From contig JAHBVS010000001.1 in NCBI GenBank assembly GCA_019637445.1, positions 1,523,586-1,587,585 on the forward strand: a DNA stretch of 64,000 nucleotides, read 5' to 3'. This DNA is from Gemmatimonadaceae bacterium (GTDB lineage: Bacteria; Gemmatimonadota; Gemmatimonadetes; Gemmatimonadales; Gemmatimonadaceae). The notes under the pieces were generated by a model, which worked only from the letters and a program-made list of their open reading frames with translations, ran no database searches and had not been told where the DNA came from. Position numbers and translations under genes: made by a program. Shown here in pieces: positions 8,199-12,564 of the stretch. Each line of letters starts with the position of its first letter. The stretch's first letter is position 1.

Positions 8199-8591
8199 CT
8201 AGGCTTTCCGATACTCCGCACTGATCACCGACTTCAACCCACCCCGCACATTGAAATCGCCGACCACCTTCAACGACCGCGGCTTCACCTTCGCGGCCAG
8301 GTCGTCCAGGATACGGTTCACTACCCGCTCATAGAAGATCCCGTCGTTCCGGAAGCTCCACAGATACAGCTTGAGCGACTTGAGCTCGATGCACTCCGCG
8401 TCCGGCACGTAGGTGATGTTGATCGTCGCGAAGTCCGGCGCGCCGCCCTTGAGCAGCGCCAACTCGGCCGCATCCGACTCCACGCCGCCCAACGGGCACA
8501 GCGACGTGAACTCCGGCGTGGTCATGAAGATCTCGTAGTCCCGATCGGGATACGGATTCGGGAAGGTCTCCAGCAGTTCCGGTTGTGGCAT
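8199..8591 (-). CDS. queF: NADPH-dependent 7-cyano-7-deazaguanine reductase (preQ1 synthase)
   Basis: 130 residues. QueF reduces preQ0 to preQ1 in queuosine tRNA modification. The active-site Cys is in FTSLCPLGG, and the NADPH-binding family motif is ELKSLKLYLWSFRN. The C-terminal core (DDLAAKVKPRSLKVVGDFNVRGG) is also conserved. Oddity: about 14 extra residues (GVESDAAELALLKG) lie between the CPLGG stretch and PDFATI, where family members usually have only a few residues. No queC, queD or queE is recognisable here; a radical-SAM-like gene without cysteines lies two genes downstream in transcription. Confidence 0.92.
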   Translation of the reverse strand: MPQPELLETFPNPYPDRDYEIFMTTPEFTSLCPLGGVESDAAELALLKGGAPDFATINITYVPDAECIELKSLKLYLWSFRNDGIFYERVVNRILDDLAAKVKPRSLKVVGDFNVRGGLKSVISAEYRKA

Positions 8592-8596
8592 CGGGA

Positions 8597-9550
8597 TTAT
8601 TCGTCGCGCAGCTTGCGCGAGTGGTCGTCGAGGACGCGGCGCTCGTCCGGCGTCAGCCGGTCGAGCCCTTCCGCGGAGATCTTGTCGAGGATCGCATCCA
8701 ACGTCGGCGGCGCGGCGGCGGCATCCTGCGACTCCTCGGGGCGCGGCGCGCGGCGCCGCGTCGGGGTGGCCTGTCGACGCGAGGACTCCGCGTTCGTGCG
8801 CGCCACGACATCGTCAATCGATTCGCGCTGCGCGCGCGAACGCGGCAGCGTCTTGGGCACGGCGCGGGGCGGCTGGTCTTCGGGCGGCTCGTCAGGCATC
8901 GCCGACACGCCTTCGCGGAATCGCTCCACGAACAGCACGCTGGTCGTGCGCGCAAACACCCAGGCCGCGGCGAGACCGCCGAGGTGCGCGACGAACGGCA
9001 GCCCGCCGCCGATCGGCTCCTCGAGTCCGCTGAGCATCACCACCGCGGCCACGAACGCGGCCAACCAGCGCACGCGCACGGTGAATCCGCCGGCCAATAC
9101 CCGCTCCTCGCCGCCCCAGCGCATCGCGTGCGCACCAAGCACGCCGAACCCAACGGCCGTCGCACCCAGCAACGTGGCATCGCCACCGACAAACAGGTGC
9201 AGGATCCATCCGCCCAACGCAGCCAGTGCCAGGAATCCCGCAAAGCGCCGCGAACCCCAGAACCGTTCCAGCCGCGGGCCGAACAGCACCGTCATATAGA
9301 CGTTGAGTGCGAGCACAAATGCCGACGGCTGCACCAGCGCGTAGGTGGCCACCGACCACCAGCGACCAGCATCCAGGTCGCCTCGACGGAACCCGAACAC
9401 CGCCTGCATCGCCTCGGGCTGCACCACCGTCCACTGCAGGAAGTGCACGCCGAGCAGCGCGCCCACGAACCACAGCGTCGCCGGCGGGATCAAGGATCCT
9501 CCGGCGTGCGGCGCGGTCGGCGCAGTCTGAATCGGCGGTGAGTCGGCCAT
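8597..9550 (-). CDS. Rhomboid-family membrane protein lacking the catalytic serine
   Basis: 317 residues. About six membrane helices occupy residues 20-215. The fold signature is rhomboid, including the conserved helix-6 histidine in FVAHLGG. The helix-4 GxSG serine motif is replaced by GATA (LLGATAVGFGVLG), so serine-protease activity is unlikely. The cytoplasmic tail carries the C-terminal helix common in bacterial rhomboids (LDAILDKISAEGLDRLTPDE, about residues 281-300). It sits 5 nt upstream of queF and 4 nt downstream of the radical-SAM-like gene. It is probably a pseudoprotease that binds membrane proteins. Confidence 0.8.
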   Translation of the reverse strand: MADSPPIQTAPTAPHAGGSLIPPATLWFVGALLGVHFLQWTVVQPEAMQAVFGFRRGDLDAGRWWSVATYALVQPSAFVLALNVYMTVLFGPRLERFWGSRRFAGFLALAALGGWILHLFVGGDATLLGATAVGFGVLGAHAMRWGGEERVLAGGFTVRVRWLAAFVAAVVMLSGLEEPIGGGLPFVAHLGGLAAAWVFARTTSVLFVERFREGVSAMPDEPPEDQPPRAVPKTLPRSRAQRESIDDVVARTNAESSRRQATPTRRRAPRPEESQDAAAAPPTLDAILDKISAEGLDRLTPDERRVLDDHSRKLRDE

Positions 9551-9554
9551 CAGC

Positions 9555-10217
9555 CTATCGTAGCCCCGTCGGCGGCGGAAGTTTCACGGCCAGGCGTGTG
9601 TCGGCGTGCACGGATACCGCCTGCTCCAGCAGCGTGGCCCAACGACGGTCCAGCGTCGGCGTGCCGTCTCCGTTGGTCGGCGGCTGGATCACGATCTGCG
9701 TATCGGCGCTCGCACTGTGCGCCTCCTGGATCAGGCGCATCAGCACGGAGTCCGTCGTGTCCTCGCGCGGCACCAACGCCAGCGCGTGCGCCACCTTGCC
9801 CTTGGCCGCCACGCGCAGCGTCTCGATCACGTGGTCGAGCACCGCTTCATTGCCCGTGAACTCGACGGTCACCTGCACGAGCGCGAGATGCCCGAGCAGC
9901 TCCGGCAGCTCCTCCGGCCGCAGGCCGTCGGTATCCAGCATCACCGGGATCTTCGGCGCGGCAGCGTCGAGTGCGGCCTTCAGGAAGGGCACGCTGCCCA
10001 GCGGGTCGCGCCCGGCGATCGCGATCGAATGGAACGTCGAGCGCCCCATCTGCCGCTGCAGCTCGCGAATCAACGCCGGCGTCATATACATCGTCGCCGT
10101 CTCGGCCTCGCCCGCGAACTTGATGAACAGCTGCCGACGCCCGGCCCAGGGGCCCAGCGCCTGCACACCGGCCGGTACCCCGGCCAACGCGGCGGCCAAC
10201 GGCATACTTCCACTCAT
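9555..10217 (-). CDS. Radical-SAM-like protein without cluster cysteines
   Basis: 220 residues with no cysteine anywhere. Segment order resembles a QueE/activase-type radical SAM barrel. RRQLFIKFAG is followed by EAETATMYMTP where a CxxxCxxC cluster motif would lie. SIAIAGRDPL occupies the place of the GGEP strand, VMLDTDGLRPEEL resembles the LETNG strand, and IVIQPPT resembles a late barrel strand. If this reading is right, it can no longer bind a 4Fe-4S cluster and would be a pseudo-enzyme. It directly abuts ddl (no gap). Homology is inferred from pattern only; 'conserved hypothetical' is the safe fallback. Confidence 0.5.
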   Translation of the reverse strand: MSGSMPLAAALAGVPAGVQALGPWAGRRQLFIKFAGEAETATMYMTPALIRELQRQMGRSTFHSIAIAGRDPLGSVPFLKAALDAAAPKIPVMLDTDGLRPEELPELLGHLALVQVTVEFTGNEAVLDHVIETLRVAAKGKVAHALALVPREDTTDSVLMRLIQEAHSASADTQIVIQPPTNGDGTPTLDRRWATLLEQAVSVHADTRLAVKLPPPTGLR

Positions 10218-11165
10218 TCAGTCTCCTCCCACCGACCGCAACGCCTCCACGGCGATGCGCTCACAGAGTTCGGGAAAGTCGATCCCGGCCGCCATCGCCG
10301 CCTGCGGCACCAGGCTCGTTCCCGTCATGCCGGGCAGCGTGTTCGCCTCAAGGCAGAACAGCCGCCCGTCCGGATGCAACCGAAAATCAATGCGCGCACA
10401 GCCTCGCAACTTGAGTGCCGCGTAGGCGGCCAGCGCCAGGCGCTGTGCCTCGTCGCGCACGACGTCGTCGATTGGCGCCGGAAACAGCTCCTCCGCCATC
10501 CCCGGCGTGTACTTGCACTCGTAGTCGTAAATCTCGTGCTTGGGGATGATTTCGCCAACCGGCAGCGCCACCCCGCCGAGCACCCCGACCGTGAGCTCGC
10601 GACCGGGCACGTAGCCCTCCAGCATCACCTCGTCGTCGTGCTTGAACGCCTCAGCGATCGCCCCCGCCAGTTTCTGGGGTGCTTTCACGATATCCAGCCC
10701 CACGGTCGAGCCCTGCTTTGAGGGCTTCACCACCACCGGATTCCCCAACGCGGCGAACGTCTCGGTCGCAAAGACCGGTTCCCGCCAGTCACGCGTGGCC
10801 AGAGCGGAGTTTGCGATAACCATCCGCCAGTCCGCCGTGAGCACCCCGGCTGCGCGGAACAGATGCTTGGACAAATCCTTGTCCATCGCCAGCGCGCTGG
10901 CGAGATGTCCACTCCCTGTGTAGCGCACGCCGGCAAGGTCAAACAGCGCCTGGATGGTGCCGTCCTCGCCGGTGCCGCCGTGCAGCGCCATCCACACCAC
11001 GTCGGCCTGTCTCGCGGCATCCAGCACCGCCAACGGATCCGGATGCGGATCCGCCGTCGTCACCGTGTGTCCGCGCGCCTTCAACGCCTCCGCGACCCGT
11101 CCACCACTCGACAGCGACACCTCACGCTCCGCCGAGCTGCCTCCCAAGAGCACGAGAATCTTCAC
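10218..11165 (-). CDS. ddl: D-alanine--D-alanine ligase
   Basis: 315 residues, an ATP-grasp enzyme joining two D-Ala for peptidoglycan precursors in the cytoplasm. The N-terminal signature is LLGGSSAEREVSLSSG, followed by the substrate region LHGGTGEDGTIQ. The ATP-grasp core includes VVVKPSKQGSTVG and MLEGYVPGRELTVGVL, and the C-terminal metal site lies in ARIDFRLHPDGRLFCLEANTLPGMT. It is complete and of normal length. It starts 1 nt after the cystathionine beta-synthase stop on the same strand. Confidence 0.96.
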   Translation of the reverse strand: MKILVLLGGSSAEREVSLSSGGRVAEALKARGHTVTTADPHPDPLAVLDAARQADVVWMALHGGTGEDGTIQALFDLAGVRYTGSGHLASALAMDKDLSKHLFRAAGVLTADWRMVIANSALATRDWREPVFATETFAALGNPVVVKPSKQGSTVGLDIVKAPQKLAGAIAEAFKHDDEVMLEGYVPGRELTVGVLGGVALPVGEIIPKHEIYDYECKYTPGMAEELFPAPIDDVVRDEAQRLALAAYAALKLRGCARIDFRLHPDGRLFCLEANTLPGMTGTSLVPQAAMAAGIDFPELCERIAVEALRSVGGD

Positions 11166-11166
11166 G

Positions 11167-12564
11167 TCAGCGCGCCATCAGGAACTGCAGGAGGTCGGAG
11201 CGCGTGAGGATGCCCTGCACCGTGCCGTGATCGCGCACCAGCACGGCGGGGTTATTCCGCCCGAGCAGCTTCACTGCAGCATCGGCCGGCGTCTGCGCAT
11301 CCACGATGGGGAACGGCGCGTCCATCACGTCACTCACCGTGCGCTCGAGCACCTTGGTGTCCTCGAGCCCGCGCACGCTCAGCACGCTCTCACTCACCGA
11401 GCCCACGCAGTTCGCGCCGTCCATCACCGGCAACTGCGACACGTCGTGCAGGCTCATCAGGCCCAACGCCTGCCTCACGCTCTGTCCCGGTGTCGCGCTC
11501 ACCAGCGCAGGGATCTGCCCGCCCTTTGCACCCAGGAGCTGGCCGAGCGTCACCTTCTCGGCGTCCAGCAGCTGGTTCTCGCGCATCCACTCGTCGTTGA
11601 ACAGCTTCGAGAGATAGCGCTCGCCGGTATCGCAGAGCACGGTGACCACCAACGCGTCGGGATCGTTCACACGTCGCGCCACGCTGAGCGCGGCGTGCGC
11701 AATCATCCCCGCGGATCCGCCGACAAAGAGCCCCTCCTCGCGCGTGAGGCGCCGCGCCATCGAGAACGCGTCGCGATCGCTCACGCTGATGTACTCGTCC
11801 ACCAGCGAAAGATCGAGCGTGCCGGGAATCTTGTCCTGGCCCACGCCCTCCACCTTGTATGGCGCGCCCTCAACCTTGTTCTTGCCGCCACTGCGCCAGG
11901 TCTCGGCGAGAATCGACCCCACAGGATCCGCGCCAACGATCTGCACCTTGGGATTCTTCTTCTTCAGGTAGCGCGCCGTGCCGGTGATGGTGCCGCCCGT
12001 GCCCGCGCCTGCCACGAAGTGCGTAATCTTGCCGGCCGTCTGCTCCCAGAGCTCAGGACCCGTGCTGGCGTAGTGCGCCTCCGGATTCGCCTGGTTGTAG
12101 AACTGGTCGGCGAGCACCGCGCCCGGCGTCTCCTTCGCGATGCGCTTGGCCATCGACGTGTAGCTGTCCGGATGGTCCGGCGGCACCGCGGTCGGCGTGA
12201 TGATCACCTCGGCGCCGAAGGCCTTGAGCAACCGAACCTTCTCCTGCGACATCTTGTCCGGCATCGTGAAGATGCACTTGTAGCCCTTGAGCGCCGCGGC
12301 AATCGCCAGTCCGATGCCGGTGTTGCCACTCGTGCCTTCGACGATCGTGCCGCCGGGCTTGAGCTTGCCCTCCTTTTCGAAGCGCTCGATCATCGGCAAC
12401 CCAATGCGGTCCTTCACGGAGCCGCCGGGATTGAAGAACTCCGCCTTGCCGTACACGGGCGTGCGGATGCCTTCCGTGACCTTGTTGAGCCGGATGAGTG
12501 GCGTCCAGGCGATCGTCTCGAGGACGTTGCCGTAGGGTTCGCGATTTCGCAGGGAGTCGGTCAT
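11167..12564 (-). CDS. Cystathionine beta-synthase (PLP domain plus CBS pair)
   Basis: 465 residues. The N-terminal fold type II PLP domain has the Schiff-base lysine in NPGGSVKDRIG and the cofactor loop GTSGNTGIG. A second glycine loop, GAGTGGTITG, lies near residue 190. Two CBS domains fill about residues 345-465. This matches cystathionine beta-synthase, which condenses serine (or O-acetylserine) with homocysteine in transsulfuration. A cysteine-synthase activity cannot be excluded. It belongs to the leftward cluster with ddl; mutS ends 9 nt upstream of it. Confidence 0.88.
   Translation of the reverse strand: MTDSLRNREPYGNVLETIAWTPLIRLNKVTEGIRTPVYGKAEFFNPGGSVKDRIGLPMIERFEKEGKLKPGGTIVEGTSGNTGIGLAIAAALKGYKCIFTMPDKMSQEKVRLLKAFGAEVIITPTAVPPDHPDSYTSMAKRIAKETPGAVLADQFYNQANPEAHYASTGPELWEQTAGKITHFVAGAGTGGTITGTARYLKKKNPKVQIVGADPVGSILAETWRSGGKNKVEGAPYKVEGVGQDKIPGTLDLSLVDEYISVSDRDAFSMARRLTREEGLFVGGSAGMIAHAALSVARRVNDPDALVVTVLCDTGERYLSKLFNDEWMRENQLLDAEKVTLGQLLGAKGGQIPALVSATPGQSVRQALGLMSLHDVSQLPVMDGANCVGSVSESVLSVRGLEDTKVLERTVSDVMDAPFPIVDAQTPADAAVKLLGRNNPAVLVRDHGTVQGILTRSDLLQFLMAR

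Follow-up and report, generated by a model that had tools for sequence, protein, structure and literature searches.

A QueE-like protein without a radical SAM cluster site in the Gemmatimonadaceae

The cluster is the defining feature of radical SAM enzymes. In Escherichia coli QueE, it is held by C31, C35, and C38, magnesium is bound by T40, and the substrate is bound by Q13, E15, and R27 (PMC11142719). The same protein has a role in cell division that is independent of catalysis, and the region E45-E51 is needed for this role at the division site; this is a single bifunctional enzyme that carries its cluster, however, rather than a cluster-less paralogue (PMC11142719). The radical SAM fold is also used for ligand binding by the heme chaperones HemW and Campylobacter CgdH2, and Cj0363c, taken to be CgdH2, is reported to keep a CX3CX2CXC motif (PMC10320005). 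Searches of open-access literature found no cysteine-less radical SAM family of the kind described below, and no QueE-derived family with a deleted cluster loop.

Here, we describe a protein, referred to as X, that is encoded in a 64,000-nucleotide stretch of a Gemmatimonadaceae genome (the window). X resembles the GRRQ-type QueE of Desulfuromonadales and archaea in that homology spans the full length of the protein, the QxxGxxxGRRQxFxR lid is present, and the strands and helices follow the same order. HS(I/V) at strand 2 and the first glycine of the GGEP motif are also shared. In contrast to these enzymes, X has no CxxxCxxC loop, and its segment between strands 1 and 2 is shorter by about 14 residues or more.

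The gene, its neighbors, and its distribution

The gene for X (9555..10217, minus strand) opens with an ATG and encodes 220 residues (...RRQLFIKFAGEAETATMY...). None of them is a cysteine, as a sequence-only reading of the window had stated. It lies in a row of genes on the same strand with intergenic gaps of 0-5 bases, running from cbs (11167..12564; cystathionine beta-synthase or cysteine-synthase-like, named from sequence) and ddl (10218..11165; D-Ala-D-Ala ligase, named from sequence) through X to a gene for a rhomboid-family protein with DUF6576 (8597..9550; Pfam) and queF (8199..8591; preQ1 synthase, TIGR03139 of NCBIfam). X starts immediately 3′ of the ddl stop codon, and its ribosome-binding site GGGAGGAG (10223..10230, minus strand) lies within the 3′ end of ddl, upstream of the ATG; the end of X is 4 bases upstream of the rhomboid start. 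The gene row and family matches agree with the earlier observation that X abuts ddl and is grouped with queF and a serine-less rhomboid. The rhomboid indeed reads GATAVG instead of GASxxxG, such that its catalytic serine is replaced. This serine is kept in most X carriers where the motif could be read, and its replacement is confined to a few close relatives of this genome; a link between X and the loss of the serine was thus rejected. The loss is a separate, later event in those few relatives.

One search found X in 21 of 61 genomes, with all carriers belonging to the same genus or taxonomic family, and a profile search found it in 60 genomes of a single family among 395 of the phylum. The sole profile match outside this family (G304) is a shikimate-kinase-like frame, and was set aside as noise. 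Counted in the 60 is a genome (G306; locus L213, G306:C106) that holds a 75-residue remnant of X, in which the first and last parts are joined in frame and the middle is deleted. Conservation is reported below for 62 full-length orthologues from one taxonomic family. Wherever the contig extends far enough around a carrier locus, X is found between ddl and either the rhomboid gene or queF. The non-carrier loci that could be read have the order ddl, rhomboid, queF, or simply ddl, queF, and a cysteine-bearing QueE occupies the position of X in none of them.

Within the genus, the 5 genomes without X measure 1.8-2.3 Mb and the 12 with X measure 2.3-4.2 Mb. X can thus be dispensed with, and small genomes tend to lack it. 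Among the small genomes without X (G001, G004, G009, G013, and G014), two have no match for ddl and one has no match for QueE, and these genomes possibly represent a reductive lineage. Were X the decaying pseudogene of a former QueE, the loss of all radical SAM motifs, the large internal deletion of the G306 remnant, and the absence of X from the smallest genomes of the genus would be accounted for. Against this, dN/dS ranges from 0.03 to 0.25 over 15 pairs of X genes, 20 residues are invariant in the 62 full-length proteins, and the frame is open in all of them; decay can therefore be given almost no credence. X is a real gene under purifying selection.

Descent from QueE and the predicted fold

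Existing family models respond to X weakly. Among the first 21 members, Pfam Radical_SAM (PF04055) matches nine, at best with an E of 1.6e-5 (25.6 bits against a gathering cut-off of 29.5), the NCBIfam QueE model TIGR04508 matches one (E 0.071), and the NrdG2 model weakly matches five (best E 0.0043). Since none of these 21 passes the Pfam Radical_SAM or NCBIfam QueE cut-off, annotation by cysteine motifs or by current family models misses descendants of this kind.

Cysteine-bearing relatives were fetched from named genomes with a degenerate DNA pattern for RRQxFxRxxGC(N/D)xxC, which yielded 72 stretches encoding such proteins in archaea, Desulfuromonadales, and a few other bacteria. These relatives can be regarded as QueE because one directly follows a QueD-like gene and eight are near QueC. 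A profile-profile comparison between X and this group (hhalign) gave a probability of 99.6 and a P of 1.7e-24 over 191-199 columns. The motif used for fetching sits in the N-terminal part, and the comparison was therefore repeated between residues 46-220 of X and the part of QueE that follows the cluster. This gave a P of 2e-15, compared to 0.6 for a reversed-profile control, and X against a rhomboid profile gave 0.2. Furthermore, an HMM of the cysteine-bearing family recovers all 62 X proteins with an E of 4.3e-12 or better. It is nearly certain that X descends from a QueE-type protein and has lost its cluster.

In a tree, X forms a single clade with support of 100/100 on a long branch, and the tree is midpoint-rooted, a root that does not fix where X branches within QueE. 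An exact pattern for the GRRQ-type cysteine-bearing QueE matched none of the 395 genomes of the phylum, and thus no cysteine-bearing ancestor was found inside it. The sequence-only reading had proposed to look for orthologues with an intact CxxxCxxC; none of the 62 X proteins has a cysteine at this site.

Two AlphaFold models of X, both built from X-only alignments, reached a pLDDT of 85 (21 sequences) and 91.8 (32 sequences, with a different lead sequence). The top Foldseek match for both models is Bacillus subtilis QueE (E 1.8e-6 and 2.3e-6), and a structural aligner likewise ranks QueE best (Z 18.2 and 18.1). Next comes the pyruvate formate-lyase activating enzyme (Z 17.0 and 16.6), which along with the NrdG2 activases has the same barrel as X and scores slightly below QueE. 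The gap in Z between QueE and the activase is little over 1, and the assignment to QueE hence leans on sequence more than on fold. These activases are not known to have a QueE lid. X is predicted to adopt a partial TIM-barrel fold, and the structures most similar to it are radical SAM chains.

A general TIM-barrel likeness, with X unrelated to radical SAM proteins, was also considered. The window protein, searched as a single sequence in Pfam, NCBIfam, and PDB, matches no family above threshold (its DARPin matches are noise), and KDO8P synthases appear in the Foldseek lists of X. These synthases reach a TM of only about 0.4, however, while radical SAM chains head both the Foldseek and Z lists, and the X and QueE profiles align in register at the P values of 1.7e-24 and 2e-15 given above, which makes an unrelated origin very improbable. 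The initial comparison of the segment order with QueE- and activase-type enzymes is therefore borne out by profiles, Pfam Radical_SAM matches, and fold, and neither a structure other than a partial TIM barrel nor a profile match to another family, the two outcomes named as counting against it, was encountered.

The genome that encodes X also encodes a QueE of another type (L031, 1369-1995; TIGR04508, 349.5 bits). This enzyme is of the Cx14CxxC type, and unlike X it has three cluster cysteines and all SAM motifs, lies side by side with queC, and sits on a separate branch of the tree. X shares its N-terminal Q..G...GR...F.RF.G signature and, by homology, its family fold. The X profile aligns confidently with this type at the N-terminal motif only (E 5e-4), and the type has a Cx14C segment inserted and is shorter in its C-terminal half. 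The genome further encodes Tgt and two QueD-like proteins, as well as QueF in the row of X. With separate and intact QueE, QueC, QueD-like genes, QueF, and Tgt in place, X is an extra protein and not a replacement. One of the two PTPS/QueD-like genes (L215 and L216; C1:2170171 and C1:767359) may not be a queuosine gene. Among the 21 carriers of X, QueE was found in 19; the remaining two genomes are 71% and 77% complete.

The former cluster site and the pocket of X

The combined alignment of X and QueE indicates which parts of the pocket appear to persist. Residues 19-33 of X (10119..10163, minus strand) carry the substrate-side signature of QueE, Q19..G22...G26-R27-R28-Q29-x-F31-x-R/K33. The substrate-binding Q13 of E. 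coli QueE corresponds to Q19 (60 of 62), and R27 to R33 or K33 (62 of 62). E15 is lost, with Q or L in its place in most members. The CxxxCxxC loop is replaced by EAETATMY at residues 37-44 (10086..10109, minus strand), which confirms the EAETATM first read at the cluster position. The CNLxCxY of QueE is missing, as its first two cysteines are deleted with the loop; the last cluster cysteine aligns with A38 and the following aspartate with E39. A38-E39-T40-A41 is invariant in all 62 proteins. T40 aligns with the magnesium-binding threonine of QueE (T40 of E. coli QueE) in 62 of 62, but it lies beside the deletion, and the alignment around A38-T40, which spans this deletion, is the least certain part.

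All 62 proteins are free of cysteine between residues 26 and 65. Elsewhere, 51 of the 62 carry 1-3 cysteines, and only 11 have none at all. The description of X as having lost every cysteine is thus accurate for the window protein and ten others, but not for the family, whose trait is the loss of the cluster loop and not a total loss of cysteine.

The remaining motifs are changed as well. The SAM-binding GGEP is replaced by GRDP at residues 69-72 (10002..10013, minus strand); in this GRD(P) motif, D71 is found in 62 of 62 proteins and R70 in 59, and G-R-D-(P) as a whole in 59. At the end of strand 3, the ETNG of QueE reads D-x-DG-x-RP, with DGLRP in the window protein (residues 97-101; 9915..9929, minus strand), DGxRP in the family, and D97 invariant in all 62. 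The glutamine of the QueE LQP motif is mostly a histidine (H178), though it is still glutamine in the window protein, and the C-terminal QxHK is gone. Positions that are at least 95% identical make up 35% of the barrel-mouth loops and 47% of residues 9-27, which form the N-terminal lid, but only 7% of the bottom loops and helices. Top loops 4-6 are variable.

With the loop deleted, the last cysteine changed to alanine, and GGEP changed to GRD(P), X would be unable to hold a [4Fe-4S] cluster or to cleave SAM radically. On these chemical grounds, X is expected to have no radical SAM chemistry, and it is unlikely to produce carboxydeazaguanine from CPH4 by this route.

X could work through protein contacts: it might form a heterodimer with the true QueE or regulate it, or it might be a division or envelope factor. 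There is precedent in the septation role of E. coli QueE, which is separable from catalysis (PMC11142719), and X directly follows ddl in every carrier. However, the conserved residues of X line the pocket and not the helices or the bottom face, and non-carriers retain ddl and QueE without X; a role of this kind is improbable.

The interpretation toward which we lean is that X, a cluster-less paralogue of QueE, binds a small ligand in the old pocket without radical chemistry. X would retain its partial TIM-barrel fold and the lid at its N terminus, and on the substrate side the residues aligned with Q13, R27, and the magnesium-binding threonine. The mouth of the barrel carries a new set of invariant or near-invariant residues (E39, D71, D97, R100, and H178). 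The pocket may still accommodate a small ligand, plausibly a pterin or a deazapurine of the preQ0 pathway, which X would carry, sense, or buffer beside QueF, the nearest user. In binding a ligand and handing it on, X would make a use of the radical SAM fold similar to that of HemW and CgdH2, though in a different subfamily. Pterins and deazapurines are the first candidates because Q19, R33, and T40 are kept, but this choice of ligand class is tentative. The loss of E15, the LQP glutamine (mostly H178), and QxHK means that the old ligand may no longer bind, and the proximity of queF argues only weakly for a deazapurine role, since the order ddl, rhomboid, queF also occurs without X in non-carriers.

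The conserved mouth could instead serve catalysis, with X a new, non-radical enzyme built on the QueE scaffold whose active site consists of E39, T40, R70, D71, D97, R100, and H178. Such an enzyme would perhaps be magnesium-dependent and act on a pterin, a nucleobase, or another small molecule. Strands 1-3 carry many conserved charged residues at their C-terminal ends, which TIM-barrel active sites occupy, and the magnesium-binding threonine is apparently kept. However, no known catalytic motif is matched, top loops 4-6 vary, and the gene context fixes no partner pathway, so that this is a possible but rather unlikely function. In a broader form of this proposal, likewise rather unlikely, a clade descended from QueE would have lost the cluster loop by deletion and would have assembled a new, non-radical active site from AETA, GRD, and DGxRP where the old pocket lay. 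The sequence-only reading had taken X for a non-enzymatic derivative that had acquired a new role in binding; the loss of radical SAM chemistry would follow from the missing cluster, whereas "non-enzymatic" is less secure, as X may have a new non-radical activity.

A family that has long been conserved without the cluster loop, with the barrel kept and new residues fixed at its mouth, makes it possible to test directly what the radical SAM scaffold is able to do without radicals. It may also bring to light a step in deazapurine metabolism at which a ligand is handled. Should X prove to have a non-radical active site, it would constitute a new enzyme class that evolved from the radical SAM scaffold while a working QueE remained in the same cell.
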